Source: Orbaceae bacterium ESL0727 (GTDB lineage Bacteria > Pseudomonadota > Gammaproteobacteria > Enterobacterales > Orbaceae). Taken from it: a DNA stretch of 64,000 bases. This document shows, one piece after another, positions 3,493 through 57,430 of this stretch (positions are counted from its first letter, which is position 1; the number at the start of each line of letters is the position of its first letter). Both the position numbers and the translations under genes were made by a program. The stretch lies in assembly GCA_029433345.1 (NCBI GenBank), contig JAQTHY010000001.1, positions 1,860,001 to 1,924,000 of the forward strand, in the 5' to 3' direction. The notes beneath the pieces were generated by a model. The model saw nothing but the letters and a program-made list of their open reading frames with translations. It was not told where the DNA came from and did no database searches.

Positions 3493-3531
3493 AATAACTG
3501 ATTGAAATGGGTAGTAGTTCTGAAAGTTATT
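3493..3531 (+). repeat. Interspersed repeat, subfamily B copy 1
   Basis: 39 bases bounded by AATAACT and AGTTATT, with interior TGATTGAAATGGG followed by TAGTAGTTCTGAAA. The same 39 bases occur unchanged at 14239-14277. It is intergenic, between the CRISPR leader and the ABC operon. Confidence 0.85.
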
Positions 3532-3877
3532 AGCATGATTTTATTTTGGTTTTTACATTACTTATTATTTATCAATTAGTTGTTTGATTTTCTTAGAAAA
3601 CAGCAATGCCATTTTTATTCTTCTTAATTCTTCCCTATTCCTGCCTCATTGCGCTTTCGTGAATATCACAAAAAATCACAATTTCTGATGAATTCTGCAA
3701 CGATTATCAATCAATATTCTTTTATTTTTCATTAAATAACGCAAAAATCGTCTATATCTTATCTAAGGATTATTTTTCTATTTTATGTGATTGGCGGTTC
3801 ATTGTATTTATCAGGCAAGCAAGCTTTAATAAAAAGCACCGAATAACAGCAAAATCAATGATCAATACAATACCAGT
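3532..3877. other. AT-rich intergenic region upstream of the envelope operon
   Basis: No open frame or RNA gene was recognised in these 346 bases. The region must hold the promoter of the plus-strand operon starting at 3878. No convincing -35/-10 pair or operator could be picked by eye, and no strong ribosome binding site precedes the 3878 ATG. Confidence 0.5.
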
Positions 3878-4591
3878 ATGACCACAAACGCTTACAATAC
3901 GAGCAATACTATTGCGACATTCAATAATGTAGTCAAAAAATATGATATGGATGGTTATGCCTTTACCGCCATCAAAAACGCGACCTGCACTATTCCCAAA
4001 GGAGAAATCACCTTTGTTTACGGGCCGTCCGGGAGTGGTAAATCAACATTTCTTAATATGTTGGGCCTATTAGATAAACCCAGTGCAGGGGAAATTACGC
4101 TGCTTGGACAAAATGTCTTAGCCATGAATGACAACCAAGCAGCTGATTTCCGTTCCAAGCATATCGGTTTTATCTTTCAATCTTTTAATCTGATTCCGGT
4201 GTTATCGGTGCGGGAAAATGTCGAGTTTCCATTATTACGCCATCCACTTTCCCGTCGTGAACGTAAAGAAAAGGCGGAACACTATTTAGCGGCAGTCGGT
4301 CTTAAAGATTACCTTAATCGCCGTTTAAATGAAATCAGTGGTGGACAGCGGCAACGTGTCGCTATCGCACGCGCGCTAGTCACGACACCGACACTTATCA
4401 TTGCCGATGAGCCAACAGCCAATCTTGATTCCACCACATCTGATGAGATTATTCACCTTATGTTAGCTATGCAACACCAATTCGATACCAGTTTTGTTAT
4501 CTGTACTCATAATGAAAAATTGATTAATAAATCAAGTCGCTTAATCCATATTATGGACGGCATCTTAACCGATACAGGAGAACGACCATGA
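3878..4591 (+). CDS. ABC transporter ATP-binding protein, MacB/LolD type
   Basis: The 237-residue protein is a single nucleotide-binding domain. It shows Walker [10 protein letters not shown] near residue 50, Q-loop [17 protein letters not shown], signature [15 protein letters not shown] and Walker [14 protein letters not shown], followed by an H-loop THNEK. The length and the [15 protein letters not shown] region are typical of LolD/MacB-type ATPases that power FtsX-fold permeases working across the periplasm rather than importers. The stop overlaps the next gene by four bases (ATGA), so ATPase and permease are coupled. Energy provider of a four-gene envelope operon; the cargo is unknown. 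Confidence 0.9.
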
Positions 4592-5979
4592 TTGGATTGA
4601 TCGCATTACGTAATCTCCTTAAAAATAGCCATCGTTCCGTGATTACCATTATCTCCATCGGGATTGGTGGATTAGCCATGATGTTATTTGCCGGTTTTAT
4701 CACCTCCATCTATTTTGGCGTGCAAACCGGCCTTATCCAAGATCAAGGGCAATTGCAAATTTACAAACAGGGCTATTTGCAATATGGTGCGACCGATCCT
4801 GACAGCTACACAATCGATAATTATCAGCACGTCACCGATCTCTTATTGCGTGATCCAGAACTGCAACAACAAATTGCCGTGATAACCCCGCAGATATCAC
4901 TTTCAGGTATCGCTGGGGTCGCCGCAACGGATAACAGTAAAACATTTATTGGTCGTGGTGTTGATCCTGAATCTGCCGATAAAATGCGAACATGGGACGG
5001 ATGGCATGTGCAGGTCACAACGCCCCCTACTGGCCTGAATAAAACACAACCTGATAGCGCGGTGATTGGTGTAGGCATGGCTCGCCAACTGGGTCTTTGC
5101 CATGTGCTGCATATTGCTAACTGTGAAGATCCACCGCGATTGCAATCTAAAGCGATTTCTGATGAGCAGCTTAATGTCAACACATTGATATCAAGTGAAG
5201 ATAGTGCACAGCTTAATCAACAGCGAGATACAGAAAATGGTCCGCAGCTTAACTTACTTGCGGCCAGCAGCAATGGTGCACCCAATATTATCAGTGTCTA
5301 TGTGAATCAAGCACAATCACAAGCACAGCGATCACTCGACAACGCGTTTATCATGATGAATTTTGATCTTGCCCGGGAACTGTTATATGGTGAAGCGCCG
5401 CGTGCAACCGTTATGCTTATTCAGTTATATCATCCAGAGCGGGTTGCCTTAGTTAAGCAGCGTATTCAACAACTGTTAGACGCAAATGATTTGCCACTCG
5501 ATGTGTTCTATTTTAATGAGGTGGATCCGTCGTTTGATCGCATCTTTAACATGTTTAACTTTATTTTTGGTGTAGTTTCTCTTTTTCTTGGCATGGTGAT
5601 TATCTTTACGATTACCAATACGATTAACTTAACCATTATCGAACGTGTAAATGAAATCGGCACCATTCGTGCGATGGGATTTCGGCGTCGTTTTATCATG
5701 CAAATGTTTATGACTGAAAGTGCGTTAATGGGACTATTGGGTGCGATAACCGCGGTTATATTGACGTTGATTGCCAGTTATATCATTAATCATATTGGTA
5801 TAACTTGGACGCCACCTAGTAATGCCACGCCCATAAAAATTCACCTTATGATTTTTGAAAATTTCCGGTTGATTCTAGCTATTATGGGATTTTTAGCTGT
5901 TCTTTCTGTGATCGCAGCCATTTGGCCGACCTATAAAGCGTCACGAATGAATATTATTGCCGCCATTCATCATGTTTAA
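4588..5979 (+). CDS. FtsX-family ABC permease (MacB/LolCE type)
   Basis: The 463-residue protein has the MacB/LolE layout: one N-terminal membrane helix (about residues 18-42), a periplasmic domain of roughly 270 residues, then three C-terminal helices from about residue 320 (LFLGMVIIFTITNTINLTI, a helix near 375-395 and one near 430-450). The sequence ERVNEIGTIRAMGFRRRFIM is the coupling motif of FtsX-fold permeases. It overlaps the ATPase gene by four bases and is followed closely by a LolA-like gene. Such permeases extract lipoproteins or drive periplasmic transfer instead of moving substrate through a channel. The cargo cannot be told from sequence. Confidence 0.88.
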   Translation: MIGLIALRNLLKNSHRSVITIISIGIGGLAMMLFAGFITSIYFGVQTGLIQDQGQLQIYKQGYLQYGATDPDSYTIDNYQHVTDLLLRDPELQQQIAVITPQISLSGIAGVAATDNSKTFIGRGVDPESADKMRTWDGWHVQVTTPPTGLNKTQPDSAVIGVGMARQLGLCHVLHIANCEDPPRLQSKAISDEQLNVNTLISSEDSAQLNQQRDTENGPQLNLLAASSNGAPNIISVYVNQAQSQAQRSLDNAFIMMNFDLARELLYGEAPRATVMLIQLYHPERVALVKQRIQQLLDANDLPLDVFYFNEVDPSFDRIFNMFNFIFGVVSLFLGMVIIFTITNTINLTIIERVNEIGTIRAMGFRRRFIMQMFMTESALMGLLGAITAVILTLIASYIINHIGITWTPPSNATPIKIHLMIFENFRLILAIMGFLAVLSVIAAIWPTYKASRMNIIAAIHHV

Positions 5980-5995
5980 TAATCGAGAATTATTT

Positions 5996-6778
5996 ATGCG
6001 TACTATATTATTAAAATCTTTCACATTCATGAGTATCCTTACCGCAACCTTACCGGCCTATGCTGATCAGGCTTACGATATTCTTAAACGTTCCGATCAG
6101 ATCCGCAATCCACAGACCTCTTTTGTGGTAAACGTCTTACTCAAGCAGTTTGAGAATAATAAGCTTATCGATCAAACCCGCGTGACGACTCACTCACGAC
6201 AAAATGATGAAGGGCAATTTTTAACAATTGTCTCTATCGAAGAACCAAGTGCCGATCGGGGCAAATTATTACTTCGTAATAATAATATCCTTTGGTTTTA
6301 TGATCCTAAATCAAAAGCATCGGTACGTATGTCGCCTCGCCAACGTTTGCTTGGTAATGCATCTAATGGCGATGTGATAACCTCTAACTTTACCCTCGAC
6401 TATACAGCAACACTTACAGGGGATGAGATGATCACCGATGGCGATCGCAATAATCGCTTAGCGTGGAAATTACAATTAAAAGCGAGCAATACTTTTGCCC
6501 CCTATCCACAAGTCGAATTGTGGATAGACAAAGAGAACGATCGACCTTTAAAAGGCAAATTTTATGGTCAGAGTGGTAAATTGCTCAAAATTGCTTGGTA
6601 TCGTAATTGGCAATCGGTTTTTGAGCGTATCCGACCAACCGAAGTCGTTATCGCAGATGGTTTTAATCCAAACAAAATTACTTTAATGCAACTCAGCCAA
6701 TATCAAGAAAAAACATTACCGTTATCTTGGTTTAATAAAGAGTGGCTGGCGCATTTTACATCGCAAGGTCATCAATGA
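5996..6778 (+). CDS. LolA-like periplasmic protein (outer-membrane lipoprotein-sorting family)
   Basis: I choose the ATG at 5996, which gives a clean signal peptide (MRTILLKSFTFMSILTATLP, cleavage after AYA); an upstream in-frame ATG at 5957 only adds residues encoded inside the permease gene. The mature part resembles the LolA-like family, with LLLRNNNILWFYDPKSKA, RMSPRQRLLGNASNGDV and ELWIDKENDRPLKGKFYG. Members have a half-barrel fold that carries lipid or lipoprotein through the periplasm. Placement behind an FtsX permease and before a predicted outer-membrane protein suggests the shuttle of a Lol-like relay. The stop overlaps the next start (ATGA). The function is inferred. Confidence 0.8.
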   Translation: MRTILLKSFTFMSILTATLPAYADQAYDILKRSDQIRNPQTSFVVNVLLKQFENNKLIDQTRVTTHSRQNDEGQFLTIVSIEEPSADRGKLLLRNNNILWFYDPKSKASVRMSPRQRLLGNASNGDVITSNFTLDYTATLTGDEMITDGDRNNRLAWKLQLKASNTFAPYPQVELWIDKENDRPLKGKFYGQSGKLLKIAWYRNWQSVFERIRPTEVVIADGFNPNKITLMQLSQYQEKTLPLSWFNKEWLAHFTSQGHQ

Positions 6779-8067
6779 AACAGATAAAAATCATTCTTAT
6801 CCTTTCAGTTATCACATTTTGTGCGCAGGCGAATGATGATGTTCCCTTGTTAACCGATTCCGAATTGACCCAAAATTTGCCTGCGCGATCATTGGGTTCG
6901 TTAAGCTTAGATTTGAAAAATCAGTCAATCTGGCAACAAAATGATAATGTCACCACCAGTGACCGTATCAGTGCGCGTCTTTACGGTAATAGTCATATTA
7001 ATCAATATATCGGTTTAGATCTAAATGCACGCCTGCGTAGCCAAGTTAATAGTCGCGGGCATTATCAAGTCGAGAAAAATAGTCGATTAGATCTGCAATC
7101 CTTTGCATTAAATTATACACCCAATAGCGATTGGCGTTTCATCGCGGGGCGAACGAATATCCGTAATGGCGTCGCCAGTGGCTTTAATCCAACCGATTGG
7201 TTTAAAGAGAACAGCCAAGTGATTTTCGATACACTTGATACCGCAGATAGACGCGAGGATCGCCTTGGTGTTGTGACGTTAATGGGCGTCTGGCTAAATC
7301 GCGATAGCATTGTCAACTTTGGTTATCGACCTAACTTGCATGCACGCCCCAATACGGTTGCCAGTAATCGTGATGTGATTGGTTTAGGGGTTGATCGTAC
7401 CAATCCGCAAGATTCGATTTTTATCAAATATTCACAATCATCATGGGATAATCTTTCGCTGACCTTAAGTTCCCTTTATCAGCGCGATCAGCCCAGTTTA
7501 GGGACAGAGCTAAGTTTTGCCGTGCAAGATAATCTGGTACTTTATAGCGAATGGTTTGGTCAGCGACGACAAAGTCTAACCGATAGCGCACAAAAAATGC
7601 ATGGTCAGCAACAGTTTTATCATCAATTTGCGAATGGACTCACTTGGTCGCTACAAGAGAGTTGGGTAGGTAATGAAGATATTTCGCTCAGCTTTGAACA
7701 TCATTTTAACGAAACAGGGCTAACGCAGCATCAACTTAGGGGTTGGCGCCGTGCTATCGCACAAAATAATCGGCCTGCCTATCGCATTGCTTCATTGGCT
7801 AACGTTAAGCAAGAACCGTTAGCTAAGCAACAACTTTTTAGTCGTTTCGTTTGGAATAATTTTTGGGGCGATAATGATCTTACTGCCATTACGACAATCA
7901 CACCCATGGATGGCAGTGGCTTTAATCAAGTCACCTTAAGTGCACCGATCATCCCCGCTTTACGGATCGATCTACAAGGTTATCACTATTTTGGTAAAGC
8001 CAATACTATTTATGGCAGTTCGGGACGCAAAAATGGCCTTATATTGTCATTTATTTATACGATTTAA
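6775..8067 (+). CDS. Predicted outer-membrane beta-barrel protein of the ABC/LolA-like operon
   Basis: The ATG at 6775 overlaps the preceding stop (ATGA) and begins a signal peptide, MKQIKIILILSVITFCAQA, giving 431 residues. The rest is rich in alternating polar and aromatic short strands (for example RLYGNSHINQYIGLDLNARL, DWRFIAGRTNIRNGVASGF, LVLYSEWFGQRRQ) and ends with hydrophobic LILSFIYTI, consistent with a beta-barrel whose last residues alternate toward a terminal hydrophobic residue. It has no hydrophobic helices after the leader. I recognise no specific named family. It is probably the outer-membrane end of the relay formed with the three upstream genes. A soluble beta-rich protein is possible. 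Confidence 0.65.
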   Translation: MKQIKIILILSVITFCAQANDDVPLLTDSELTQNLPARSLGSLSLDLKNQSIWQQNDNVTTSDRISARLYGNSHINQYIGLDLNARLRSQVNSRGHYQVEKNSRLDLQSFALNYTPNSDWRFIAGRTNIRNGVASGFNPTDWFKENSQVIFDTLDTADRREDRLGVVTLMGVWLNRDSIVNFGYRPNLHARPNTVASNRDVIGLGVDRTNPQDSIFIKYSQSSWDNLSLTLSSLYQRDQPSLGTELSFAVQDNLVLYSEWFGQRRQSLTDSAQKMHGQQQFYHQFANGLTWSLQESWVGNEDISLSFEHHFNETGLTQHQLRGWRRAIAQNNRPAYRIASLANVKQEPLAKQQLFSRFVWNNFWGDNDLTAITTITPMDGSGFNQVTLSAPIIPALRIDLQGYHYFGKANTIYGSSGRKNGLILSFIYTI

Positions 8068-8245
8068 TCATGATTAATCGTTAAATTCTCCCATATTAAA
8101 AAGCACGTGTTATCATCTAGCCAGTTTGGCTGCACCGTATATTAGCTATTGGTTATTGGTACAATAGTATGGCGATACGATTGCCTTGCTTTAAAATAGC
8201 GTATTTTTATGGCGACTGTAATACCGCAAATGGAGTAATAATTTT

Positions 8246-9535
8246 ATGGCTAAATGGTTTTCTTCACGTACAGTATTTTCTATGTTATTGCTCAATACCA
8301 TTATATCGAGCGGTATACTTGTCTTTGTATTGGTCTTTTCATTGCAACGGATTGCCGATGAACATCCTCGCCGATATCTATCAAAAGTATTATTTGCCAA
8401 TTTAGTGATGGATAAAACGCCCGAACAGTTAGCGCAAATTGCCATTAATGGTGTTTCGCTTATTGTGGTGCCACAAGATAAAATAGAGGATCCCAAATAC
8501 GCTTCTTACGCCCAATTATTTAAGATTGCGTTAAACGATCCCGATGGGATCGCGATAATCACGAATAATGACAGTTATATGGCCAGTGCTTACATAAAAA
8601 ATAACCACAGCTTTGTGATCTTACCGCTATTTGGACGAACCTTATCTTCTCAAGCTTTTGGCATAATTGGCATGATTATTGTTGTCATTGTGCTGATTTT
8701 ATTGGCTAACTTTTACTCGATCCATCTCTTAACCAAACCGTTTATTGAGTTACGACGAGGGGTAAAACATGCCGATGATGGTGATCTCAATTACCGGATT
8801 CCCCTTAATCGTACCTATGGCGAATACCGATTGCTCGCCGAAAGTTTTAACTCGATGTTGCAACAACTCCATCACATTCATGAAGCACGTCGTCACATGT
8901 TATTAGCGATTCCGCATGAATTACGTACTCCATTGACCCGATTAAAAGTCCGCAAGGATTTAGTCACGGATGAACCATTACGTCTAGCAATACTAGATGA
9001 TATCAATAATATTGAGCGCATTTTGGATGCAATCTTATATACCGAAAAAACGCAATCCGGTACCGGTGAGCTGCGTTTGAGCAAAATCGAGCTACGCGAC
9101 TTTTTTTATGCGCTCATAATCGAACACCAAAACAATACGCATAACATCGAACTCAACATTATCTGTAAGCAGCCCTTTTTCTATGGTCATCCAGAGATGT
9201 TAACGGTGTTGATGCGTAATCTGATCAGCAATGCGCTATTTTATGGTCAATCACAACCAGTTACGGTTACGATTGATGAGCAAAACGAGGCGTTACTGAT
9301 CACAGTGACGGATCAGGGTATGGGTATTGCCGCCGATCAACTTCCTTTCTTAACGGAACCTTTCTGGCGAGCCGATAAGTCGCGTCAACGTGAGTCGGGC
9401 GGTTATGGGCTGGGGCTTTATATCTGCAAAACGATTCTGGATGGTTTAGGTGGAGAGATAAAAATTAACAGTATTGAAGGTCAAGGAACAACCGTGCAAG
9501 TGATTTTTCCGCATGCTTTTATATCTATGACATAA
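8246..9535 (+). CDS. Membrane sensor histidine kinase
   Basis: The 429-residue protein has a membrane helix at about residues 11-33, a periplasmic domain of roughly 100 residues, a second helix at about 137-157, a HAMP linker, and a HisKA box IPHELRTPLTRLKVR with phospho-accepting His224. The ATP-binding domain follows with N-box RNLISNALFYG, DQGMGIA and GYGLGLYICK. A GGAG upstream of the 8246 ATG supports the start. It follows the outer-membrane gene on the same strand after a 178-base gap and faces a convergent response regulator. It probably senses an envelope or cation/peptide signal; the ligand is unknown. Confidence 0.92.
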   Translation: MAKWFSSRTVFSMLLLNTIISSGILVFVLVFSLQRIADEHPRRYLSKVLFANLVMDKTPEQLAQIAINGVSLIVVPQDKIEDPKYASYAQLFKIALNDPDGIAIITNNDSYMASAYIKNNHSFVILPLFGRTLSSQAFGIIGMIIVVIVLILLANFYSIHLLTKPFIELRRGVKHADDGDLNYRIPLNRTYGEYRLLAESFNSMLQQLHHIHEARRHMLLAIPHELRTPLTRLKVRKDLVTDEPLRLAILDDINNIERILDAILYTEKTQSGTGELRLSKIELRDFFYALIIEHQNNTHNIELNIICKQPFFYGHPEMLTVLMRNLISNALFYGQSQPVTVTIDEQNEALLITVTDQGMGIAADQLPFLTEPFWRADKSRQRESGGYGLGLYICKTILDGLGGEIKINSIEGQGTTVQVIFPHAFISMT

Positions 9536-9584
9536 AAACATAAAACATAAAAATCAGACGTCGACAAAATGGCAAGCGCGCGAT

Positions 9585-10331
9585 TTATATCGCCGTTTTG
9601 CCCGCATAGCCCACCATAGAATAGCCACGATTACGAATAGTCCGAATAAAATCAGCATTAGCCCCAGCATCGCGTATTTTATTCCGTAATCGATAAATTA
9701 ACGCCACAATACTACGTGAATAGATCAGATTATGATGACCACTACATTGTTGCAATAAATCGTCTTGACTTAACACCTGATTGGGGGCTTGACTGAGCGC
9801 AAAGAGGAGATCAAATTCCATGGCAGTAATAGCTAATAACTGTTCATTCACCCACACTTGCGCAGCGGCAACATCAATACGCAGCGTATCATCATTCAGT
9901 TGGAATAAAATCGCATCCAAACTTTTCGTCACAACGTCGGTTTGATTCCCCTTTTTTGCATCCTGGAAACGGCGACATACCGCATTAATCCGCGCAATCA
10001 GTTCGCGTGGCTCAAAGGGTTTGGCAACATAATCATCAGCACCCGTTTCTAAACCGACCACACGATCAACTAACTCAGATCTTGCCGATAGCATAATAAT
10101 GGGAATATCACAAACAGGTGCCGGTAAATGACGGATAGTTCGACACAGTTCTAGGCCCGTAATACGTGGCAACATCACATCTAATAAAACCAAATCATAC
10201 TGTTGCGCTTGTATCTGGACTAATCCTTCTTCTGCTGAATGGACAACATCAAGATCAATCGCAAACATCTGTAAAACAGGCTGCATGGTTTGACCTAATC
10301 CCACATCGTCATCGATCATCAGAACATTCAT
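9585..10331 (-). CDS. OmpR/PhoB-family response regulator
   Basis: The 248-residue protein has an N-terminal receiver domain with acidic pocket DDD (residues 7-9), phospho-acceptor Asp51 in LLLDVMLP, the Thr/Ser position in IIMLSARSE and the conserved Lys in VAKPFEPRELIARI. The C-terminal half is a winged-helix DNA-binding domain (ITAMEFDLLFALSQAPNQVL, VALIYRLRNKIRDAG, IRTIRNRGYSMVG). It is convergent with the histidine kinase gene, with stops 49 bases apart. This is the obvious partner, though kinase and regulator normally share an operon. Likely target promoters are its own and that of the envelope operon. Confidence 0.92.
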   Translation of the reverse strand: MNVLMIDDDVGLGQTMQPVLQMFAIDLDVVHSAEEGLVQIQAQQYDLVLLDVMLPRITGLELCRTIRHLPAPVCDIPIIMLSARSELVDRVVGLETGADDYVAKPFEPRELIARINAVCRRFQDAKKGNQTDVVTKSLDAILFQLNDDTLRIDVAAAQVWVNEQLLAITAMEFDLLFALSQAPNQVLSQDDLLQQCSGHHNLIYSRSIVALIYRLRNKIRDAGANADFIRTIRNRGYSMVGYAGKTAI

Positions 10332-10479
10332 TGTTTATGCTATCTCCACTTAGTGATCATCCGAAAATATTGTTATGAATAGCAACATTGTCATGTTTTC
10401 CGATCATACCGATAAATGATGAAATAATCTATATGAATAAACGATACCAAAACAGCACTATTTTCTATGTCAATCTAGC

Positions 10480-11214: not shown

Positions 11215-11241
11215 CTAGGCATCTCCTCTCTAAGTCGATAG

Positions 11242-12036: not shown

Positions 12037-12037
12037 A

Positions 12038-14103: not shown

Positions 14104-14238
14104 AATGAAACATTGCCTCCAGTTCTTATTTATTAAGAAGTCAGTGTGCAATCATAGAAGTACCTATTTACAGTTGTCAAATAATTTCCAAAAGAAATTT
14201 ATTCACAGAAATTCCCATATTGACCTTTAATACAACAA

Positions 14239-14277
14239 AATAACTGATTGAAATGGGTAGTAGTTCTGAAAGTTATT
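14239..14277 (+). repeat. Interspersed repeat, subfamily B copy 2
   Basis: The 39 bases are identical to 3493-3531, including the terminal inverted AATAACT/AGTTATT. It lies upstream of the MolA-like gene in non-coding DNA. Confidence 0.85.
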
Positions 14278-14521
14278 AACAAACGGATAGTTGATTTTGC
14301 TTATCCTGAAACTCAAACTCATCAAAAATTTCATTAAGTTATTTAGCTTACCAAACCCTGATTTTGATCATTTTCGTAAATAGTTTTTTGATGATTTTCT
14401 TTAATGATAGATTTGTAATAAGAAGATGTTTTCATAGAAAGATAAATAGTTTTTAGTGATGGTTAGTCGTTAAAGTTGCTTTTTACCCCTTGGTTGCTTA
14501 GACTAGATGTAGTCTTTTTTT

Positions 14522-21035: not shown

Positions 21036-21064
21036 TAAAACCCACTATCTACCGTGGGTTTTTT
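21036..21064 (+). terminator. Intrinsic terminator after the YdcH-like gene
   Basis: CCCAC (21041-21045) pairs with GTGGG (21054-21058), extended by flanking A and T bases to AAAACCCAC/GTGGGTTTT, followed by TTTTTT. Confidence 0.9.
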
Positions 21065-21098
21065 ACATAAACGTATAGTAGTTCTGAAACATTCAAAT
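21065..21098 (+). repeat. Interspersed repeat, subfamily A copy 1
   Basis: ACATAAACGTA followed by TAGTAGTTCTGAAACATTCAAA, directly after the YdcH-like terminator. It matches the copies at 30695, 31044, 34691, 43054 and 49186. Confidence 0.85.
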
Positions 21099-21125
21099 AA
21101 GCTATCACTAACGCTACTCTTTATA

Positions 21126-26666: not shown

Positions 26667-26717
26667 TTTGCCTCCAATAACAGAAAAAAGAAAGACAAAA
26701 GGTTTGAGCAGTCAACT

Positions 26718-26806
26718 CAAATCCCTCCGCTGGTATTATCCAGTTCAGGTTCGACGGGTTATATCAATTCCTTTGATATTCTCAGCCCTAAAGACACCCC
26801 GTTGAG
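26718..26806 (-). promoter_or_regulatory. TPP riboswitch (THI element) upstream of thiBPQ
   Basis: On the minus strand the conserved blocks appear in order: CAACGGGGTG, GGGCTGAGA, AACCCGT, CGAACCTGAACTGGATAAT and ACCAGCGGAGGGA. These are the invariant TPP aptamer segments, including CUGAGA and ACCUGA. It ends about 50 bases before the thiB ATG, so control is probably at ribosome access or early termination. Confidence 0.97.
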
Positions 26807-26949
26807 AACACAAGTATTCTAATAGTTGCTCTAATCTTTGTAAACCATCGCCGCATATTTGATTCTGGCAAAAATAGATATAATGAATATTGCTGATATA
26901 ACCACACGAATCCTACTCATACCAACAAAACCAAGTGGAAAATATCTAG

Positions 26950-30552: not shown

Positions 30553-30694
30553 TAATTTAAAAATAACTCTCCACTAAAATGTGGGCAGATCACAATAACC
30601 TGCTAACTATTATTGATTTATCTAATGATTATTTTGTTACTTAGCTAATTAATTGTTTTTTTAGCTATATTTATAAAGTAAATTCACCTAAAAA

Positions 30695-30730
30695 TTTGAC
30701 ATAAACGTATAGTAGTTCTGAAACATCCAA
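30695..30730 (+). repeat. Interspersed repeat, subfamily A copy 2
   Basis: TTTGACATAAACGTA followed by TAGTAGTTCTGAAACATCCAA. Upstream CACCTAAAAA is also shared with copy 3, 340 bases away. Confidence 0.88.
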
Positions 30731-31043
30731 CAAAACAGTCACGCGTTTTAGTCAGTTAGACTCACATTCAGCTGTAATTTTGGCATCCTAAAAACCCAAA
30801 TCACCCTAAATGATTAACGTTTACGTTTAGCGCAAAAGCTTAAAATAATAAATAATCACACCCGTAAGATCAATGACTAATTTCATCATTTAATCAAGAA
30901 ATTGATAAAATCCCCCAAGTAAAATATACGTTTTTATTGGCCTGAAAAGGGATAAGCGACATTGAAGTCAAAAAGCGAAAAATCAAATTAGAGAAAACAA
31001 AATAGGAAAGATTAGAGAGAAAAAATAAATCCACCCCTAAAAA
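30731..31043. other. Non-coding gap between two interspersed repeats
   Basis: These 313 bases are AT-rich with no supported gene. The flanking repeats 30695-30730 and 31044-31079 are direct copies sharing extra upstream bases, so the segment could have arisen by local duplication. Confidence 0.45.
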
Positions 31044-31079
31044 TTTGACATAAACGTAGTATAGTTCTGAAACATCCAA
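31044..31079 (+). repeat. Interspersed repeat, subfamily A copy 3
   Basis: TTTGACATAAACGTAGTATA followed by GTTCTGAAACATCCAAA; a small rearrangement of the usual TATAGTAG middle. Confidence 0.82.
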
Positions 31080-31182
31080 ATAAATAGCTAATCACTGCTA
31101 GTCGAAATGCGGGAAAAATGGCATAATAGCGGCCTCTTTTTGAAAAAATTTTAACCGCTGAAAAGTTAAATAAGAAGTTATT

Positions 31183-34637: not shown

Positions 34638-34690
34638 CGTGATTATGCTGATTAGAAAGCAGGATTGATAGAAAATTTCAAGATAGATGA

Positions 34691-34725
34691 GGATGTTTCA
34701 GAGTTACTATACGTTTATGTCAAAT
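34691..34725 (-). repeat. Interspersed repeat, subfamily A copy 4
   Basis: The minus strand reads TTTGACATAAACGTA then TAGTAACTCTGAAACATCC. It sits after yccS. Confidence 0.83.
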
Positions 34726-34745
34726 ATTTTGCCTTTTAGGGTCAT

Positions 34746-42716: not shown

Positions 42717-43053
42717 ATTAGTTTGAATGATAATAATTAAAAATCATTAAGGCAATTACGTAGCCACATTACTGTATGAATAAACACTATCATAACGTAA
42801 ATTGATTGCATTTAAAATGCTTTTTTGCGGATTTTGTTGATCTTAACAACGTTAAACTAACGACTTTACTTCATGTGTAAAATTTGGTGTGTAAAGATAG
42901 CTAAAAGATCATGTGGTTATCGGATGATATTCTCTCAATATCTCTTTCTGTAATGATTTTGTAAGTCATCAAGCACGGCTAAATCAGCTTTATGAAAGTA
43001 GGAAGAATAGCAATTTGACTCTATGTAAATCAAATCTACCCTAACAAAATTAT
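42717..43053. other. Non-coding region upstream of dinB
   Basis: 337 AT-rich bases with no supported gene. It should contain the dinB promoter; no LexA box (CTG-N10-CAG) was recognised by eye. Confidence 0.45.
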
Positions 43054-43086
43054 ACACAAACGTAGGGTAGTTCTGAAACATTCAAT
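43054..43086 (+). repeat. Interspersed repeat, subfamily A copy 5
   Basis: ACACAAACGTAGGGTAG followed by TTCTGAAACATTCAA, a diverged copy after ribB. Confidence 0.75.
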
Positions 43087-43189
43087 TTAACAAGCTGACA
43101 ATGATAAAACGGCTCTTACAAAACGTTTTTTATAAAATGGCCGTCATAAAAACAATTTTGCGAAAACTATTTTTATCTTGCTGATGATC

Positions 43190-47534: not shown

Positions 47535-47629
47535 AACAACAAGTCAAAAAAACGAAACGGAAAGATCGAACAATCCTTCCGTCTATCATTATAACTTTCT
47601 GTCATAACTAAACTTATTGGTTTAGCTAG

Positions 47630-48739: not shown

Positions 48740-49185
48740 GCTCACCACTTCTCCTCTAGGGATATTACATGTTAGACACAAGCCCACTGTTCATGACATA
48801 TCGCTTCATAGAGAAGAGATAAAAACAATGAGCCCCAAATTTTCCCGATTATTTATTGATTATATTAACTATTAATGACGATAACAATCAATAATATTGA
48901 ATAATTATTAATCACGGCATATAAACAATAGGATATATCACAAACATTACGGCGAAACCAAGGTAATCAGGCATTTATAAAAATATCAGCAAAAATAAAT
49001 ATGTAAACTGAGCCTTATGTTACGGAGGCATAAAATACCCTATTTTAGAGAGATGTCCATCTAAAATAGAAATTTTTTCTATTTTTAGCATTAACTGATT
49101 ATATTTTAGCCATTACGTATCCATAATTTTTCCGCTATTTGTTGATTCATACGCAAATTTATTATCACGCTTCTAAATAATCTTA
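48740..49185. other. Non-coding region upstream of potF
   Basis: 446 AT-rich bases with no supported gene on either strand. It presumably holds the potFGHI promoter. No operator was recognised. Confidence 0.5.
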
Positions 49186-49219
49186 TTTTGACATAAACGT
49201 ATAGTGATTCTGAAACATC
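49186..49219 (+). repeat. Interspersed repeat, subfamily A copy 6
   Basis: TTTTGACATAAACGTA followed by TAGTGATTCTGAAACATCG, just after ybjN. Confidence 0.83.
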
Positions 49220-49261
49220 GTTATAAAAAGATTGTGTGCTAACAAAATAGCACCCCTCATT

Positions 49262-50269: not shown

Positions 50270-50779
50270 TTATTCAATTGTGGCTGGTATACTTTTATCA
50301 CTTGTTGTCCAAAGACGATATTTTACCTGCAAATTGCTTGGTGCGTAAACAACAATAGGCAATTTACTATTATAATTGAACATAGCCAAATTATGATTCA
50401 ATTCAACAAATTCAGTTTTACGTTCTGCAGTTGGGCAAGCCATCATGGTGGAAATACCATCATTCACATCATCGACCACATAATAAGAATAACCCCAACC
50501 TTGTAATTCAACCGGTTTTACTAAGCCACCTAACTTATGTACATTGCAATCCACTTGCATATCTTTACCAATGACTAATTCAATACGTACATTATTTTCA
50601 TTACTACGCGGTGGAACATTAATAACAAAGCGAGAATAACCATCTTTCGCGACGGGGTAAGGGGCAATATCTTCCAGTTTTTGCACGCCTGGTTTAGCTG
50701 CCGTAACCTGTTTAGGAATAGTCGCACATGCCGACGACATCAGTACACCTAGACTAAGTGCAATAATTATTTTCCTCAT
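50270..50779 (-). CDS. eco: Ecotin, periplasmic serine protease inhibitor
   Basis: From ATG 50779 (GGAG upstream) a leader MRKIIIALSLGVLMSSACA precedes the mature inhibitor. KLEDIAPYPVAKDGYSRFVI, VDCNVHKLGGLVKPVELQGW and GYSYYVVDDVNDGISTMMAC match ecotin; the P1 Met in STMMACP and its two disulfide Cys are conserved, as is YNSKLPIVVYAPSNLQVKYR. Ecotin dimers block trypsin-like and elastase-like host proteases, useful in an animal gut. The leader contains a Cys near its end, but the typical ecotin is soluble. Confidence 0.96.
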   Translation of the reverse strand: MRKIIIALSLGVLMSSACATIPKQVTAAKPGVQKLEDIAPYPVAKDGYSRFVINVPPRSNENNVRIELVIGKDMQVDCNVHKLGGLVKPVELQGWGYSYYVVDDVNDGISTMMACPTAERKTEFVELNHNLAMFNYNSKLPIVVYAPSNLQVKYRLWTTSDKSIPATIE

Positions 50780-50900
50780 TAGTTTTCTCCTTCGTAGTAA
50801 CATTTATATAATTTTAAAAATATTATGCGTATAATAGCACTGTTTATCTTAAAAAACTGTTTATCTTCATTGATTTATTTAACACAAGTGTGGTTACATC

Positions 50901-51953
50901 ATGCCAGCAACAAAAAATAGTTACGATTTATTAAAATTAATTTTTAATGTATTAATTATCGGGCTGCTTATTATCTTTACTTATCGTGTCGCTGCAGCTT
51001 TTCTATTCGGTCTGTTTTGGGCTGTCATGGTGGTAATTGCCACATGGCCATTGATGATTAAAATCCAACATATTTTATTCAATAAACGGTTATTATCGGT
51101 TTGTGTGATGACGGTTATTTTATCACTATTTTTTATCATTCCGTTTATTTTGATCATTCTTAGCATTACTAAAAATGGACAATTTCTTATCGAATGGGCA
51201 AAAAACCTGCCTTTACAAAAATTACCTACTTTAGATTGGCTCGACCGTTTACCTTTATTTGGTACGGAACTGCATCAGAAATGGTTAGAAGTGAGCAAAA
51301 CCGATGGTTCTGATTTGATTAAAGAGATCCAACCCTATATAGGCACCATGGTTTCATGGACGTTAGAACAAGCAACCAATATCAGTATTTTTGCTTTTCA
51401 TGGCGGCGTAATGATTGTGTTTAGTGCGCTACTCTATTTGAAAGGTGAAGAGACTACTCATTATGTTTATCTCTTTGCCAACCGTTTATCTACACAATAT
51501 GGCGAAATTGCCGTCACGTTAGCAGGACAATCCATCCGTGCGGTTGCTTTGGGTGTCGTCGTCACGGCGATCACACTTGCCATCATGGGGGGATTAAGCT
51601 TTGTGATCACAAACATGCCTTACCCGGGTATTCTAACCTTAATTTTATTTATTTGCTGCGTTGCACAAATTGGTCCTGTCATTGTTATGCTTGGTGCCAT
51701 TATTTGGCAATTTTGGGATGGCAATACCTATTCAGCAATTATTTTAATTGTGGTTGCAGTTATATTAACCACGCTCGATAGTGTGATGCGGGCATTTTTA
51801 ATTAAACGTGGCGCCGATCTTCCTTTCCTATTAATTCTATTTGGTGTCATTGGCGGCTTACTCAGTTTCGGCGTAATGGGATTATTTATTGGCCCTGTCG
51901 TTCTGGCATTAAGTTATAAATTGATTCGCGCATGGATTAGCGAACAACAGTAA
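50901..51953 (+). CDS. ydiK: AI-2E family transporter YdiK
   Basis: The 350-residue polytopic protein has about eight membrane segments. VMVVIATWPLMIKIQHILFN, SIRAVALGVVVTAITLAIMG and the C-terminal LFGVIGGLLSFGVMGLFIGP with RGADLPFLLIL match YdiK. Substrate unknown. It is the second PerM/YdiK-superfamily protein in the window (the other at 18045-19136) but is clearly a different paralogue. pssA follows on the same strand. Confidence 0.9.
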   Translation: MPATKNSYDLLKLIFNVLIIGLLIIFTYRVAAAFLFGLFWAVMVVIATWPLMIKIQHILFNKRLLSVCVMTVILSLFFIIPFILIILSITKNGQFLIEWAKNLPLQKLPTLDWLDRLPLFGTELHQKWLEVSKTDGSDLIKEIQPYIGTMVSWTLEQATNISIFAFHGGVMIVFSALLYLKGEETTHYVYLFANRLSTQYGEIAVTLAGQSIRAVALGVVVTAITLAIMGGLSFVITNMPYPGILTLILFICCVAQIGPVIVMLGAIIWQFWDGNTYSAIILIVVAVILTTLDSVMRAFLIKRGADLPFLLILFGVIGGLLSFGVMGLFIGPVVLALSYKLIRAWISEQQ

Positions 51954-52020
51954 GGAATATTATTTTCTTACCTAAAATATGTTATTCTATAATCTATTTT
52001 TGTTAAGTGACAATATCATC

Positions 52021-53376
52021 ATGCGCATACCGTTTATAAAATATAATCACAAAAAACACCTTGATGAATTACCTAAAATTCAGCAACGTGCTGCGGATTA
52101 TCATATCTTATACCAACCCAAAGACTATCGTGTCGCCCTACTCGATAATATCCATAAAGCAGAACGCCGCATCTACATTATTGCGCTTTATTTAGAACGC
52201 GACGAAGCAGGTAGAGAACTTTTAGAAACACTTTATCAAATAAAAGCGCTCCGCCCACACTTAGATATCAAAATATTTGTCGATTGGCACCGAGCTCAGC
52301 GCGGCCGTATTGGCGAAGGCACAAGTGAAAGTAATGCCAATTATTATTACGCCATGCGCCAAAAATACCCTAATATTGATATTCCGATCTATGGTGTGCC
52401 TATTAATCGCCGAGAAGTACTCGGTGTCTTACATCTTAAAGGTTCCATTATCGACGATACTGTCATTTATACCGGCGCCAGTATTAATAATGTTTATCTA
52501 CATAAATTAGAAAATTATCGCTATGACCGTTATCATGTCATCGTTAATAAAAAGTTGGCGGATAGCATGATCAACTATGTTAATGATAATTTTTTACCTT
52601 TCACTGCGGTGCAGCGTCTTGATACACCGCAACATAAAACGCGTAAACAGCTCAAACCCGATATTAAAGTGCTCCGCCATCATCTGATGAATACCAATTA
52701 TCAATATGAAGCTAATGGCAATAATGAGTCGTTAACAGTTGCACCCATTGTCGGGGTAGGTAAAAATAATCCGCTCAATAAAATTATTCATCATTTGATT
52801 AATATTACTCAAGAAAAAGCCACTTTCTGCACCCCATATTTTAATCTACCCAATATTGTGATGCGCGATATTATTCGGTTATTACGCAAAGGTCGCCAAG
52901 TTGAGTTAATTATCGGCGATAAAATTGCCAACGATTTTTATATTCCCGAAAATGAACCATTTAATATTTCCGGGGGGCTACCCTATTTATATGAGATTAA
53001 TCTCCGTAATTTTATTGAACGTTTACAACATTTTGTTGATAAAGGACAGCTAATTATTCGATTATGGCAAGATGGTAATCAAACTTATCATTTAAAAGGT
53101 ATCTGGATCGATAATGAGTGGCTACTAATCACAGGGAATAATGTAAATCCACGTGCTTGGCGGCTCGATCTTGAAAATGGTATTTTAGTCCATGATCCAA
53201 AACAAGAACTACAATCACAAATTCAAACTGAACTGGCCACTATTCGCGAAAAGACGACATTAATTACTCACTTCCAACAAATTCAAGCTAGCCAATTTTA
53301 TCCCAAACAGGTCCATAAATTAATAAAACGATTAAGTCGCATCCGTGTTGATCGAATCATCAAACGATTACTGTAA
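52021..53376 (+). CDS. pssA: CDP-diacylglycerol-serine O-phosphatidyltransferase
   Basis: The enzyme makes phosphatidylserine, the precursor of phosphatidylethanolamine. From ATG 52021 (451 residues, matching E. coli) it starts MRIPFIKYNHKKHLDELPKI. Both phospholipase-D-type HKD motifs are present: HLKGSIIDDTVIYTGASINN and HLKGIWIDNEWLLITGNNVN. DWHRAQRGRIG and TPYFNLPNIVMRDIIRLLRK confirm the family. An in-frame start 14 codons upstream is unlikely. Confidence 0.96.
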   Translation: MRIPFIKYNHKKHLDELPKIQQRAADYHILYQPKDYRVALLDNIHKAERRIYIIALYLERDEAGRELLETLYQIKALRPHLDIKIFVDWHRAQRGRIGEGTSESNANYYYAMRQKYPNIDIPIYGVPINRREVLGVLHLKGSIIDDTVIYTGASINNVYLHKLENYRYDRYHVIVNKKLADSMINYVNDNFLPFTAVQRLDTPQHKTRKQLKPDIKVLRHHLMNTNYQYEANGNNESLTVAPIVGVGKNNPLNKIIHHLINITQEKATFCTPYFNLPNIVMRDIIRLLRKGRQVELIIGDKIANDFYIPENEPFNISGGLPYLYEINLRNFIERLQHFVDKGQLIIRLWQDGNQTYHLKGIWIDNEWLLITGNNVNPRAWRLDLENGILVHDPKQELQSQIQTELATIREKTTLITHFQQIQASQFYPKQVHKLIKRLSRIRVDRIIKRLL

Positions 53377-53466
53377 ATAAGCTTTTTACACATAAAAAGA
53401 TCATCACCTTTTAGCTATTCTATTATCCACCGATGTTTGTCGGTGGAATAGCAATGATAAAAGTTT

Positions 53467-53499
53467 GATTGAAATGGGTATCAACTCTGAAAGTAATTT
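53467..53499 (+). repeat. Interspersed repeat, subfamily B copy 3
   Basis: TGATTGAAATGGG followed by TATCAACTCTGAAAGTAATT, diverged in the middle. It lies between pssA and pilD. Confidence 0.8.
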
Positions 53500-53512
53500 A
53501 CAACATAATTTG

Positions 53513-54292
53513 CTATAAAAAATAGATTAACCCATAGCCTGCTATCAATAAAAATGGACCAAATGGAATCATTTTTAACGATGAATAATGCAACAGATAA
53601 CGTAATACAAGATAATAAATCATGCCAAGTAATGAGGCAATAATTAACAAAAGTGGCAATCTTGAATAAGGAATCCAAGCCCCTAATGCAGCTAAAAGTT
53701 TAATATCTCCGCCCCCTAAGCCAATTTTTTTAGTCACTAAATAGAAAATCAATGCAGGGATTTTAAGCAGTAGATAGCCAAAAAATATACCAATCAATGC
53801 CATCTCTAATGAAATAAAGGCGCAATTAAAATAAGCCAATATAACCCCTAACCACATGAGTGGCTGCGTTAAAAAATCGACTAGCAAACAATACCGAAAA
53901 TCAATCATCGCAAGTAGTAAAAACCAACAAGCAAGCAACAAGAATAATATTACCTGGAAATAAGGTGCGATCTTATGCGACAACATAAGATCATTCCCCT
54001 GTTTGTCAAGACCTATTAATATAAATGCGCAGCCACATAATAGTTCAAGCAGCAGATAATCATACGGTATTTTACATTGACAAAAATAACAACGACCTTT
54101 TAGATATAACCATGAAAATAAAGGTATCAGTTGCCAATAACGTAAGCGATGGTGACAGCAAGGGCAAATAGAACGATTAAACGTTATCGAAAAAAGATAA
54201 TTTGACAGACTAATATCAGGTGAAAAGCGAACATAAGCCACATAAATAAAACTCCCGAAACTAAGTCCGAATAAGAAAAATACTACAAGCAT
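53513..54292 (-). CDS. pilD: Type IV prepilin peptidase/N-methyltransferase
   Basis: The 259-residue membrane protein cleaves the prepilin leader and methylates the new N-terminus. It starts with LFGLSFGSFIYVAYVRF, has the zinc-type Cys pairs CPCCHHRLRYWQLIPLFSWL and CYFCQCKIPYDYLLLELLCG, and the catalytic Asp residues in AMIDFRYCLLVD and GLGGGDIKLLAALGAW. Last gene of the pilin cluster; its start touches the pilC stop. Confidence 0.94.
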   Translation of the reverse strand: MLVVFFLFGLSFGSFIYVAYVRFSPDISLSNYLFSITFNRSICPCCHHRLRYWQLIPLFSWLYLKGRCYFCQCKIPYDYLLLELLCGCAFILIGLDKQGNDLMLSHKIAPYFQVILFLLLACWFLLLAMIDFRYCLLVDFLTQPLMWLGVILAYFNCAFISLEMALIGIFFGYLLLKIPALIFYLVTKKIGLGGGDIKLLAALGAWIPYSRLPLLLIIASLLGMIYYLVLRYLLHYSSLKMIPFGPFLLIAGYGLIYFL

Positions 54293-55467
54293 CAGTGGAT
54301 CACATCCCCAAGTTGGAAGATAGGCAAATACATTGCCACAATTAATCCACCAATAATTAAAGCTAATACCATCATAAGGAGCGGCTCAAATTTTTGTGAT
54401 AGATTATCGGTTAACTCTTCATTCTGTTCTTGATAATAATTGGCCAGTTTATCTAACATAAGATCCAGAGCACCTGACTCTTCACCTGCGCGAATCAGCT
54501 GAAAACATAAACTCGGGAAAATCGCATGTTGATTAACTGCATAACTCAATGACTGACCTTGTTCAATCGTCGCGATTATCTGCTGTATTGTGTACTTATA
54601 GTGGCTATTGTATGCCGTATTTGCAGCGGCACTTAATCCAGCCAATAAGGGAATCCCCGATTTTTGCGTGATCATCAATGTTTGGAAAATCTGGGTTAAA
54701 CAGCTGGTTTGTATAATCTTACCTAACAACGGAAGCTTTATAAGTGCGCGATCAATCTTTGATTGATATTTCTGTTTTAAGTAACGTTTATACAAATAGA
54801 AAATTAGGATAGCCAGCAACAATATCACACCGCCATTCTGCTGCAAAAAAATGGAAAAATGGATAACCGCTTGTGTAAAAAAAGGGAGTTCGGTATCAAA
54901 GCTAGCATACACATCCGAAAATTTAGGTAATACAATCAATAACATCACCGCTGCAACGATTACCGCAACAGATAATAAAAATAGCGGATAACGCAAAGCT
55001 TTTTTTATTCGTTTTTGTAACTGTAACGATTTTTCAAGCTGCACAGCAAGTTGTTCAAAGCTCTGATCTAATTGCCCCGTTAACTCCCCTGTTGCAATAA
55101 TCTCACGATATAACGGTGGAAAAATGGATTCATATTCCCTTAACACACGGGATAAAGGATCACCTTTAATCAACTTATTTTTAATTTCCCCCAGCAGATA
55201 TTGCCAGTAAGATTTATTATGCTCTTTAGCAAGTAGCTGCAAACTCTCAACAATCGGCAAGCCCGCTTTTAACATCGTTGCTAACTGCTTAGTCACAACA
55301 GACAGTTCACCAAGATTAAAACTTTTCGACGTAATCCGTACATCTGGTTTGATCCGAATAGCAAATTGCCCTTGCAATAAGAGTTGCTTACGAACATCTT
55401 GTACAGATGAAGCAATAATTTTCTGTTGATTAAACTCGCTATCATACCAAAAATATAATCTTTTCAT
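54292..55467 (-). CDS. pilC: Type IV pilus inner-membrane platform protein PilC/HofC
   Basis: From ATG 55467 (a GTG three codons earlier is possible) about 391 residues with the duplicated T2SSF domain: LSVVTKQLATMLKAGLPIVE, LSRVLREYESIFPPLYREII and GELTGQLDQSFEQLA in the first, LTQIFQTLMITQKSGIPLLA and IRAGEESGALDLMLDKLANY in the second. Three hydrophobic segments anchor it. It anchors the PilB motor. It lies 101 bases after pilB. Confidence 0.92.
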   Translation of the reverse strand: MKRLYFWYDSEFNQQKIIASSVQDVRKQLLLQGQFAIRIKPDVRITSKSFNLGELSVVTKQLATMLKAGLPIVESLQLLAKEHNKSYWQYLLGEIKNKLIKGDPLSRVLREYESIFPPLYREIIATGELTGQLDQSFEQLAVQLEKSLQLQKRIKKALRYPLFLLSVAVIVAAVMLLIVLPKFSDVYASFDTELPFFTQAVIHFSIFLQQNGGVILLLAILIFYLYKRYLKQKYQSKIDRALIKLPLLGKIIQTSCLTQIFQTLMITQKSGIPLLAGLSAAANTAYNSHYKYTIQQIIATIEQGQSLSYAVNQHAIFPSLCFQLIRAGEESGALDLMLDKLANYYQEQNEELTDNLSQKFEPLLMMVLALIIGGLIVAMYLPIFQLGDVIH

Positions 55468-55568
55468 GGTGTGCACTCATCTGATCATTTTAATCTAAAT
55501 CATCCAGACATATTCAGCAGAAGTCACTAACACAACAAAATAATATGAAATAAAATAAAATTATTATG

Positions 55569-56678
55569 TTAGATATGACCACCTAATACGCGATGCAATT
55601 CGGCCAAGGTTGTTATCCCTTCTCGAACCAACTTTTCGCCTGCCGTTTTTAGCGATATCATCTTATTCGGAATAATCTTCGTTTTATTTAGGATCTGCTG
55701 TTGAATTTCAGGCGTGATAAGTAAAAATTCATATAGACCGATCCGGCCTCGATAACCACCAATACAGTGCTGGCACCCCACCGCTAAAAAATGTGGAGTT
55801 GCTTCTTCCTCAAATCTGACTAACTCACAGGCTACCACTTTACAATGTGGACAGAGTTTACGTACTAACCTTTGGGCGATGACAAGTTTCAAACTCGATG
55901 CCAGTAAATAATGTTCAATGCCCATCTGATTAAGGCGTGTCAATGCTTCAATACTAGAATTTGTATGTAAAGTTGATAAAACCAAATGACCTGTCTGTGC
56001 TGCTTGAATGGCGATTTCAGCCGTTTCACGATCACGTATCTCACCAATCATCATCACATCTGGATCTTGTCGCAAAAAAGATCGTAAAATCTGTGCAAAC
56101 GTCAGCCCTGCTTTCAGATTCACTTGTGTTTGATTAATACCTTCAATCGGAATTTCGATGGGATCTTCAACACTACAAATATTACGATCGGTTTTATTTA
56201 ATCGTTTCAGGCCACTGTAAAGTGTCACTGTTTTACCACTACCCGTTGGGCCTGTAACCAAAATCAATCCTTGTGGGTGCGTAAGTAGCTCACAGAAAAG
56301 AGACAACTCTTGTTCCGGTAAACCTAATTCGTTAAAGGATAACTGTTGTTCATGATTATCCATGACACGCAATACAATTTTTTCACCATTAAGAACCGGT
56401 AAAGTAGAGATACGCATCGTATATTGATCAATGATAAGTTGTCCATCTTGTGGTAAACGTTGCTCAGCGATATTTAATTTAGCCATAATTTTTAACCGTG
56501 CCGCAATCTGTTTTGCCAAATCCAATGGTGGCGATAACATGTTTTGTAATACACCATCGATTCGCATACGAATACGATAACTTTGCCGGTAAGGTTCAAA
56601 ATGGATATCTGAAACACGTTTATTTAACGCATCGAGTAACAATTCATCAATGCTTTCAACCAACTTTTCATTATGCAT
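55569..56678 (-). CDS. pilB: Type IV pilus assembly ATPase PilB/HofB, short form
   Basis: The 369-residue ATPase has RVSDIHFEPYRQSYRIRMRI, Walker A LVTGPTGSGKTVTLYSGLKR, Asp box SVEDPIEIPIEGINQTQVN, Walker B RSFLRQDPDVMMIGEIRD, the His box GHLVLSTLHTNSS, and a zinc-binding tetra-Cys region beginning CPHCK with a later CQHC. It powers pilin polymerisation. The usual N-terminal MshEN-type domain (about 90-200 residues) is absent, and upstream DNA has no matching frame. Confidence 0.92.
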   Translation of the reverse strand: MHNEKLVESIDELLLDALNKRVSDIHFEPYRQSYRIRMRIDGVLQNMLSPPLDLAKQIAARLKIMAKLNIAEQRLPQDGQLIIDQYTMRISTLPVLNGEKIVLRVMDNHEQQLSFNELGLPEQELSLFCELLTHPQGLILVTGPTGSGKTVTLYSGLKRLNKTDRNICSVEDPIEIPIEGINQTQVNLKAGLTFAQILRSFLRQDPDVMMIGEIRDRETAEIAIQAAQTGHLVLSTLHTNSSIEALTRLNQMGIEHYLLASSLKLVIAQRLVRKLCPHCKVVACELVRFEEEATPHFLAVGCQHCIGGYRGRIGLYEFLLITPEIQQQILNKTKIIPNKMISLKTAGEKLVREGITTLAELHRVLGGHI

Positions 56679-56709
56679 AACGACAGATCCTTTTTATGAG
56701 AAGATCAAT

Positions 56710-57159
56710 TTATTTAAATTTAAAAATATCTTCACACGCTGCTGTTAGGCTTGTATCCGCCGGCGTAACGGTACATGTTCGCGACCAATTTAGATGACCT
56801 TGCGTCGCATCAACTGTTGGTGTCAATGTTGTCACAAGACCCGCTAAAGCATTTTGCCCCGTTAAAGTAATAACACCCGCAGCAACATTAACCGAAGTCA
56901 CATATTGCGTTGTTCTTGATACAGGAACACCATTACTACCTGTATTACAGCTTGTTAAGCCCCCTTTTTCTAATACACAAAGTTCAATAGATGTTTTATA
57001 AGGTGTCATAGTCTGCAACATATCTGTCAGTGCCGCTTTTTTCACATAACCTTGATAGGCAGGTAAACCTATTGCCGTCAAAATTGCGATCACAACAATG
57101 GCAATCATTAATTCAAATAAAGTAAATCCAGCTTGAGTGTGCATTACATTTTTCATCAT
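56710..57159 (-). CDS. pilA: Type IV pilin (PpdD/PilA-like)
   Basis: From ATG 57159 (AAAGGAAACG upstream) about 149 residues. A short basic leader ends QAG|FTLFELMIAIVVIAIL, the class IVa prepilin cleavage site with Glu5 and the hydrophobic polymerisation helix. The body has one Cys pair in the middle (LCVLEKG.. and SCNTGS) and a C-terminal pair in CTVTPADTSLTAAC. It is the first gene of pilA-pilB-pilC-pilD, which can make a DNA-uptake or adhesion pilus; retraction, secretin and alignment genes are not here. Confidence 0.93.
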   Translation of the reverse strand: MMKNVMHTQAGFTLFELMIAIVVIAILTAIGLPAYQGYVKKAALTDMLQTMTPYKTSIELCVLEKGGLTSCNTGSNGVPVSRTTQYVTSVNVAAGVITLTGQNALAGLVTTLTPTVDATQGHLNWSRTCTVTPADTSLTAACEDIFKFK

Positions 57160-57400
57160 ATCGTTTCCTTTCATTTTTATAAGTGAATAAAATCAGGACT
57201 CCTTTATAACAGAAGGAAAAGATGAAAGAAGAAATCAACCCAAAATCTGGACAATATCATCAAAATTAACTATAGAAATAACCTAAATTGCCATAAATTT
57301 GTGAGCTATCTCGTATTTTTCGATGCTATACAGATTAGTATCCAAGATACGTAATATTTTTTCTTAACGGTAAGAATAATAAAATATTACCATGTTCATA

Positions 57401-57430
57401 AGTTTCAGAACTACTACCCATTTCAATCAA
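57401..57430 (-). repeat. Interspersed repeat, subfamily B copy 4
   Basis: Minus strand reads TTGATTGAAATGGG then TAGTAGTTCTGAAACTTA. It is in the pilA-guaA gap. Confidence 0.85.

Follow-up and report, generated by a model that had tools for sequence, protein, structure and literature searches.

What is the short sequence that recurs between the genes of this stretch of DNA, and what keeps it there in two spellings? The window, the whole 64,000-nucleotide stretch analyzed here, is positions 1860001 to 1924000 of contig 1 (C1) of Orbaceae bacterium ESL0727, whose 2.15-Mb genome (G000) is in two contigs; one window protein has relatives of 75 to 79% identity in Gilliamella and of 68% in Orbus, and the organism is a Gilliamella. 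The initial annotation had described at least ten copies of a repeat with two subfamilies, A and B, in both orientations. We found 10 of 10 within a few bases of the positions that it gave, eight forward and two reverse. Profile models scored these copies at 42 to 59 bits and all other window sequence at 15 bits or less. The copies in the window are the following.

3494..3539 (located at 3499), plus strand: B copy, 55.2 bits, model R2
14240..14284 (located at 14245), plus strand: B copy, 58.2 bits, model R2
21057..21103 (located at 21063), plus strand: A copy, 53.7 bits, model R1
30689..30737 (located at 30697), plus strand: A copy, 58.3 bits, model R1
31037..31086 (located at 31046), plus strand: A copy, GTATAG variant, 59.2 bits, model R1
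34687..34730 (located at 34722), minus strand: A copy, TAGTAA variant, 47.4 bits, model R1
43042..43092 (located at 43052), plus strand: A copy, GGGTAG variant, left half most diverged, 47.2 bits, model R1
49182..49229 (located at 49189), plus strand: A copy, TAGTGA variant, 47.4 bits, model R1
53461..53507 (located at 53466), plus strand: B copy, TATCAA variant, 42.5 bits, model R2
57389..57434 (located at 57429), minus strand: B copy, 54 bits, model R2

The repeat is a bipartite, nonpalindromic site of about 41 to 46 bp, and A and B form a single family spelled in two ways. A is laid out as AAAAATT-TGACATAAACGTA-NNNNNN-TTCTGAAACATCCAAATAAA and B as AAC-TGATTGAAATGGG-TAGYAG-TTCTGAAAGTTATTAACAT; both have, in the same register, TGA, AAA, most of the middle, and CTGAAA. 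The tail TAGTAGTTCTGAAA, said to follow every copy, is exact in 5 of the 10 window copies, and bases 14 to 19 vary, mostly in A, with the variants TAGTAG, GTATAG, GGGTAG, TACTAG, TAGTGA, and others. The B copies at 3493 and 14239, described as identical over 39 bases, are so over at least 40, but the AATAACT/AGTTATT pair said to bound them occurs in few B copies and is no family-wide feature. Conservation spans about 46 bp in A (66 copies) and about 41 bp in B (32 copies), and the flanks beyond are unconserved. Each site carries 57.3 bits (A) or 60.4 bits (B) versus the 14.7 bits needed to mark 165 places, both being upper figures because the copies were chosen by motif similarity and include a few duplicates. 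An alignment of 38 sequences over several Gilliamella species gave the consensus TTTTATACTNAAACGTATANNNTTTCTGAAACTTCTTGACAA, with CTGAAAC-like words 18 bp apart.

Two further observations concern the window itself. The near flanks of the A copy at 30689..30737 recur identically at 890.9 kb of C1 (23 and 30 bp compared). This copy and the next A copy, at 30.7 to 31.1 kb, lie 349 bp apart, as does a pair at 890.5 to 890.9 kb of C1 (L053), where both near flanks of the first copy and the left flank only of the second are identical; because near flanks and spacing recur, the segment seems to be duplicated there. A 10-mer, CCGCACAGGC, which resembles a type I-F CRISPR repeat, occurs 12 times in the window and the sampled G000 loci L069 to L087.

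Copies are not few genome-wide. With at most one mismatch, 116 A and 58 B left halves were found in G000, against 7 and 2 for the reversed-pattern controls. A 14-mer of the repeat had 42 exact matches in this genome (control, 0) and a single occurrence in each of 3 of 59 related genomes. The profile models gave at least 114 A rows (R1, a lower bound, with 114 candidates scored per genome) and 51 B rows (R2, one being the end of an A copy). Mean density is one element per ~12 kb. The right half stood without an A or B left half in 2 of 90 cases in G000 DNA sampled largely around elements. The claim that copies never lie inside genes held for 94 of 95 sampled elements, with genes taken by a simple rule as open reading frames (ORFs) of at least 100 codons; the exception, L066:1047, lies inside a 343-codon ORF. 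This count leaves out two L053 elements from the duplicated segment and one locus-edge element that did not have both flanks. Convergent gaps hold 25 of the 94 intergenic elements and make up about 5% of the window's intergenic length (six gaps only). In the G000 sample, the median distance was 141 bp to facing gene ends and 263 bp to gene starts, and orientation relative to neighboring genes, which the initial annotation had proposed to record, was near random.

The elements are spread along the chromosome more evenly than uniform placement predicts. For 164 merged A and B positions, the coefficient of variation of spacing was 0.655 versus 0.950 under a null of uniform placement along the chromosome, not limited to intergenic gaps, and none of 5,000 simulations was as even; for the 145 model matches alone, the values were 0.680 and 0.953 (0 of 5,000). 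These lists cover contig 1 and hold 109 A and 47 B model matches plus 19 hand-picked places from pattern searches. Evenness of a single type was unclear (A alone, p 0.14; B alone, p 0.13) and that of the joint set was not; therefore, A and B behave as one set. Evenness was weak in other Gilliamella genomes, with G020 and G023 tending in the same direction as G000: p was 0.07 to 0.17 in G020, 0.03 with arrays merged and 0.66 before merging in G023, and 0.05 to 0.16 among the matches listed in G001. GC skew of sampled G000 stretches put the origin near 0.6 Mb and the terminus near 1.65 Mb (coarsely), and no replication strand bias was found in G000, where the leading strand holds 73 of 156 elements (A, 52 of 109; B, 21 of 47). 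An apparent bias in partial lists was gone in the fuller list and by variant. No orientation bias relative to replication was found in G001.

The initial annotation had left three options: a mobile miniature element, a protein-binding site, and an RNA element. The last finds no support in folding of the consensus, which was no better than that of shuffled sequences on either strand, or in the Rfam matches in the window, a TPP element and two tRNAs only, none at repeat copies. (The TPP riboswitch, RF00059, lies at 26704-26811 on the minus strand and scores 75.3 bits.) The palindromic hairpin typical of REP elements with their RAYT transposases was not found, folding again being no better than in shuffles; Y1 transposases gave no match in G000 in a search that was positive in 5 of 14 control genomes; and the conserved terminal inverted repeats of a MITE were absent from column profiles and folds. 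A sigma-70 promoter was also considered and rejected: some versions have, by eye, a -35/-10-like pair 17 bp apart on their reverse strand, but A and B do not preserve this pair, and the placement of the elements also speaks against a promoter.

Of the 35 Gilliamella genomes examined, 23 have diverged versions of the element, with at least 18 copies each by model R3, and the other 12 are nearly without it (7 copies or fewer each). R3, built from the 38-sequence alignment, was used with E up to 0.01 for G001 and up to 0.001 for the others, with 150 candidates scored per genome. Five of the 35 genomes are 59 to 86% complete; three of these are among the 12 near-empty ones, two of which are less than 70% complete. 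Model R1 likewise matched diverged relatives in other Gilliamella, and iterative profile searches over DNA stretches from five such genomes returned 97 rows, of which 86 fall in the larger stretches. Outside the genus, R3 had no match in one other member of the family or in three other members of the order, and in 20 genomes of other genera of the order R1 and R2 gave one weak match each in three and two genomes, respectively (E 0.003 to 0.01). Exact patterns matched viral contigs once, by chance as judged by eye, and then not at all; one pattern requiring TAGYAG had no match in a wider genome collection from which the organism's own and near records were possibly excluded; and one 58-base A query had none in phage and plasmid records. 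The part of the literature that we searched holds no description of such a repeat. Fifteen rows among the 86 relative elements, amounting to about eight locus pairs, have a flanking gene in common with the set of 98 G000 elements, and one locus pair between G000 and a distant species shares both flanking genes. By a rough estimate made without a control, such sharing of positions across distant species is no more than expected by chance.

Several local contexts of the relatives deserve description. G001 has many same-strand tandem arrays, mostly of 104- to 215-bp units, and among the matches listed 23 of 24 clusters are single-strand. Every unit of arrays L127, L130, L132, and L140 begins with the element, and in L140 a unit of 458 bp contains two elements plus GC-rich parts; five G001 stretches had no Rfam match. 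In G019, G028, and G009 (L141 to L158), the element sits in the middle of decayed transposase-like repeats of 400 to 750 bp, which we take to be IS481; because part of the copies lie inside this repeat, the totals for these genomes include hitchhikers. A related sequence lies between mfd- and lolC-like genes in five species (L127:4464-4505, L150:6636-6677, L160:7385-7426, L114, and L115); it departs from the species dialects and overlaps the lolC-like start in the three that were read. An element precedes a pdxS-like gene in three species, and the gap there is, by eye, about equally long in several species without the element.

The sister species G020 and G023, 89.8% identical over 102 kb, differ in how the element is spelled at sites that stay in place. 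The G020 sample (418 kb) has 23 elements (17 on the plus strand, 6 on the minus), and the G023 sample (406 kb) has 31 (29 on the plus strand, 2 on the minus). G020 elements were mapped to G023 by their 600-bp flanks, and 14 were used; nine were set aside because six lacked a flank match in the G023 sample, one matched only in part, and two lie in gene arrays whose matches are paralogous. At 12 of the 14 sites, the element is present in both species. All 10 plus-strand sites read CAGGAAA in G023 versus CCTGAAA or TTGGAAA in G020, and none of the four minus-strand sites does, two being unrecognizable and two scoring about 24 bits. Three of the 10 have one good flank, and the both-flank subset gives 7 of 7 plus against 0 of 4 minus. 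If orientation were irrelevant, the chance of this split would be 1 in 1,001 (1 in 330 for the stricter set), for a grouping chosen after the data were seen. GC skew is negative almost throughout the mapped pieces of both genomes; on G023 contig C13 it is positive, and there most CAGG elements occupy the minus strand. Over two G023 contigs, 25 of 28 CAGG loci are co-oriented relative to replication (p 2.7e-5), with same-strand neighbors within 3 kb merged by hand and L250, whose skew is ambiguous, excluded. Of the five G023 elements without CAGG, four are opposite to the replication-oriented set and one weak one is aligned with it. Loci L204 and L205 of G023 are arrays of paralogous proteins of about 420 to 460 amino acids with elements between the genes; three array genes in a similar place of G020 had no Pfam match.

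G004 carries a short form. In 300 kb its 12-mer AACCCTAAAACA has 43 occurrences, about 600 times the number that a dinucleotide model predicts, with 18 occurrences within ORFs, 25 between them, and 23 of 43 on the G-rich strand. The sample comprised 15 stretches, five chosen by model match, one by 14-mer match, and nine at spaced positions. The 12-mer is the right half of longer G004 elements (e.g., TTGATTGAAATGGGTAGTAACCCTAAAACAAATTTGCA) and is absent from the sampled DNA of G000, G001, G020, and G023. The 13-mer AACCCTAAAACAT has 31 exact occurrences in the same 300 kb and 47 with at most one mismatch (reversed control, 1), and on its own it looks like an uptake-type sequence. In other species, cores inside genes numbered 1 of 11 (G001), 2 of 16 (G020), and 4 of 28 (G023). 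One G004 locus, L264 (of L252 to L266), has three inverted pairs of AACCCTAAAACAT that could form hairpins.

Among the three options of the initial annotation, a protein-binding site is, we infer, the best supported. With less than even confidence, we propose that A and B are putative recognition sites of a DNA-binding protein whose role is most likely an uptake-type recognition of self DNA; we mean this likeness as an analogy and do not claim membership in the uptake-sequence class. Beyond the number, bipartite layout, intergenic placement, joint evenness, dialects, and kept positions of the sites, which are observed, we infer that a protein reads the sites and that they are maintained. A drifting repeat fits poorly with the excess information and with how few decayed copies there are; positions kept with altered spelling argue against simple jumping; and even spacing points to a function of the whole chromosome or to a process of equal effect. 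The gene-borne short form in G004 argues for origin by mutation and favoring, as insertion hardly explains sites within genes. The uptake analogy was adopted because uptake sequences are a known kind that combines these traits. Under such a mechanism, DNA with the favored spelling would be taken up and recombined preferentially, which would homogenize sites in place, favor even coverage, and create dialects, and where a lineage lost the preference, its sites would be free to disappear. Three features fit an uptake role poorly, and each favors a rival: confinement to intergenic gaps, sparseness, and, in G023, orientation with replication. A cognate DNA-binding protein was not found, and the literature passages searched show no sign of competence in Gilliamella.

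A possible, though in our view doubtful, alternative is a nonautonomous repeat resembling REPs or MITEs, mobile or selfish, that an unrecognized enzyme spreads, with single-stranded or recombinational copy conversion. High information per copy and few intermediates suggest copying (in models built from the same copies), amplification and absence are lineage specific, G001 arrays have breakpoints at the element by eye, and in G023 nearly all elements with the new spelling share one orientation relative to replication, the pattern expected of strand-biased spread. The initial mobile-element option is nonetheless weakened by the joint evenness, by positions kept while spelling differs, and by the short core within G004 genes; G000 offers neither a Y1 transposase nor a palindrome or conserved inverted ends, and the pdxS-like gap is no shorter, by eye, in species without the element. 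Even spacing, distance from gene starts, and the replication orientation in G023, where opposite-facing sites decay, would also suit binding sites of a protein that structures or segregates the chromosome or is linked to replication. We consider this unlikely, given the near absence from 12 of 35 Gilliamella genomes (two less than 70% complete, and G004 with its own dialect), the lack of an orientation rule in G000 or G001, and the homogenizing force that a change at about 100 sites requires. A promoter, operator, or RNA regulatory element of adjacent genes is very improbable: the mfd/lolC-like sequence and the copies ahead of the pdxS-like gene speak for it, but convergent gaps hold over a quarter of the intergenic elements, gene starts are farther away than gene ends, orientation to neighbors is near random, and RNA structure is missing.

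Returning to uptake-type recognition, a more specific and rather speculative form, which we hold improbable as a whole, is that the elements are long bipartite self-recognition tags. A changed specificity of the reader would rewrite correctly oriented tags in place, in step with replication direction, and misoriented tags would decay; G004 would hold a 12- to 13-bp tag that has spread into genes.

Known systems place these readings in context. Neisseriaceae uptake sequences, found as 10-mers, have dialects conserved within species according to PMC3630211, and a significantly even spacing of uptake sequences was at one time reported by Karlin et al. (cited in PMC1939737). The full-length Haemophilus USS is modeled as 31 bp, with a spacing of about 1,000 bp, in PMC7811141, so a long motif has a parallel among uptake sequences. 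Like the DUS of Neisseriaceae and the USS of Pasteurellaceae, the elements are many dispersed near-identical sites in both orientations with species dialects and even spacing, and the G004 short core lies both in and between genes. Unlike them, the Gilliamella element is about 40 bp long, bipartite, present once per ~12 kb rather than ~1 kb, intergenic in most species examined, and replication-oriented in G023. REP sequences and REPINs with TnpA-REP (RAYT) share the 20- to 40-bp class, intergenic location, many copies, and lineage specificity, whereas the Gilliamella repeat is nonpalindromic, hairpin-free, and evenly spaced, with no Y1 transposase in G000. The polar motifs Chi, KOPS, and Ter are dispersed, and the element is replication-oriented in G023 as they are, but no orientation was seen in G000, G001, or the G004 core. 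Chi, KOPS, and Ter each differ from the element in length and copy number.

Gilliamella is a bee symbiont, and its sister pair G020 and G023 captures a genome-wide difference in spelling at sites that stay in place. This pair allows a test of how dispersed bacterial motifs spread: through copying, through site-by-site selection, or through uptake and recombination that are biased. Because about one-third of the Gilliamella genomes examined are nearly without the sites, the cognate gene should be findable through a comparison of gene content.
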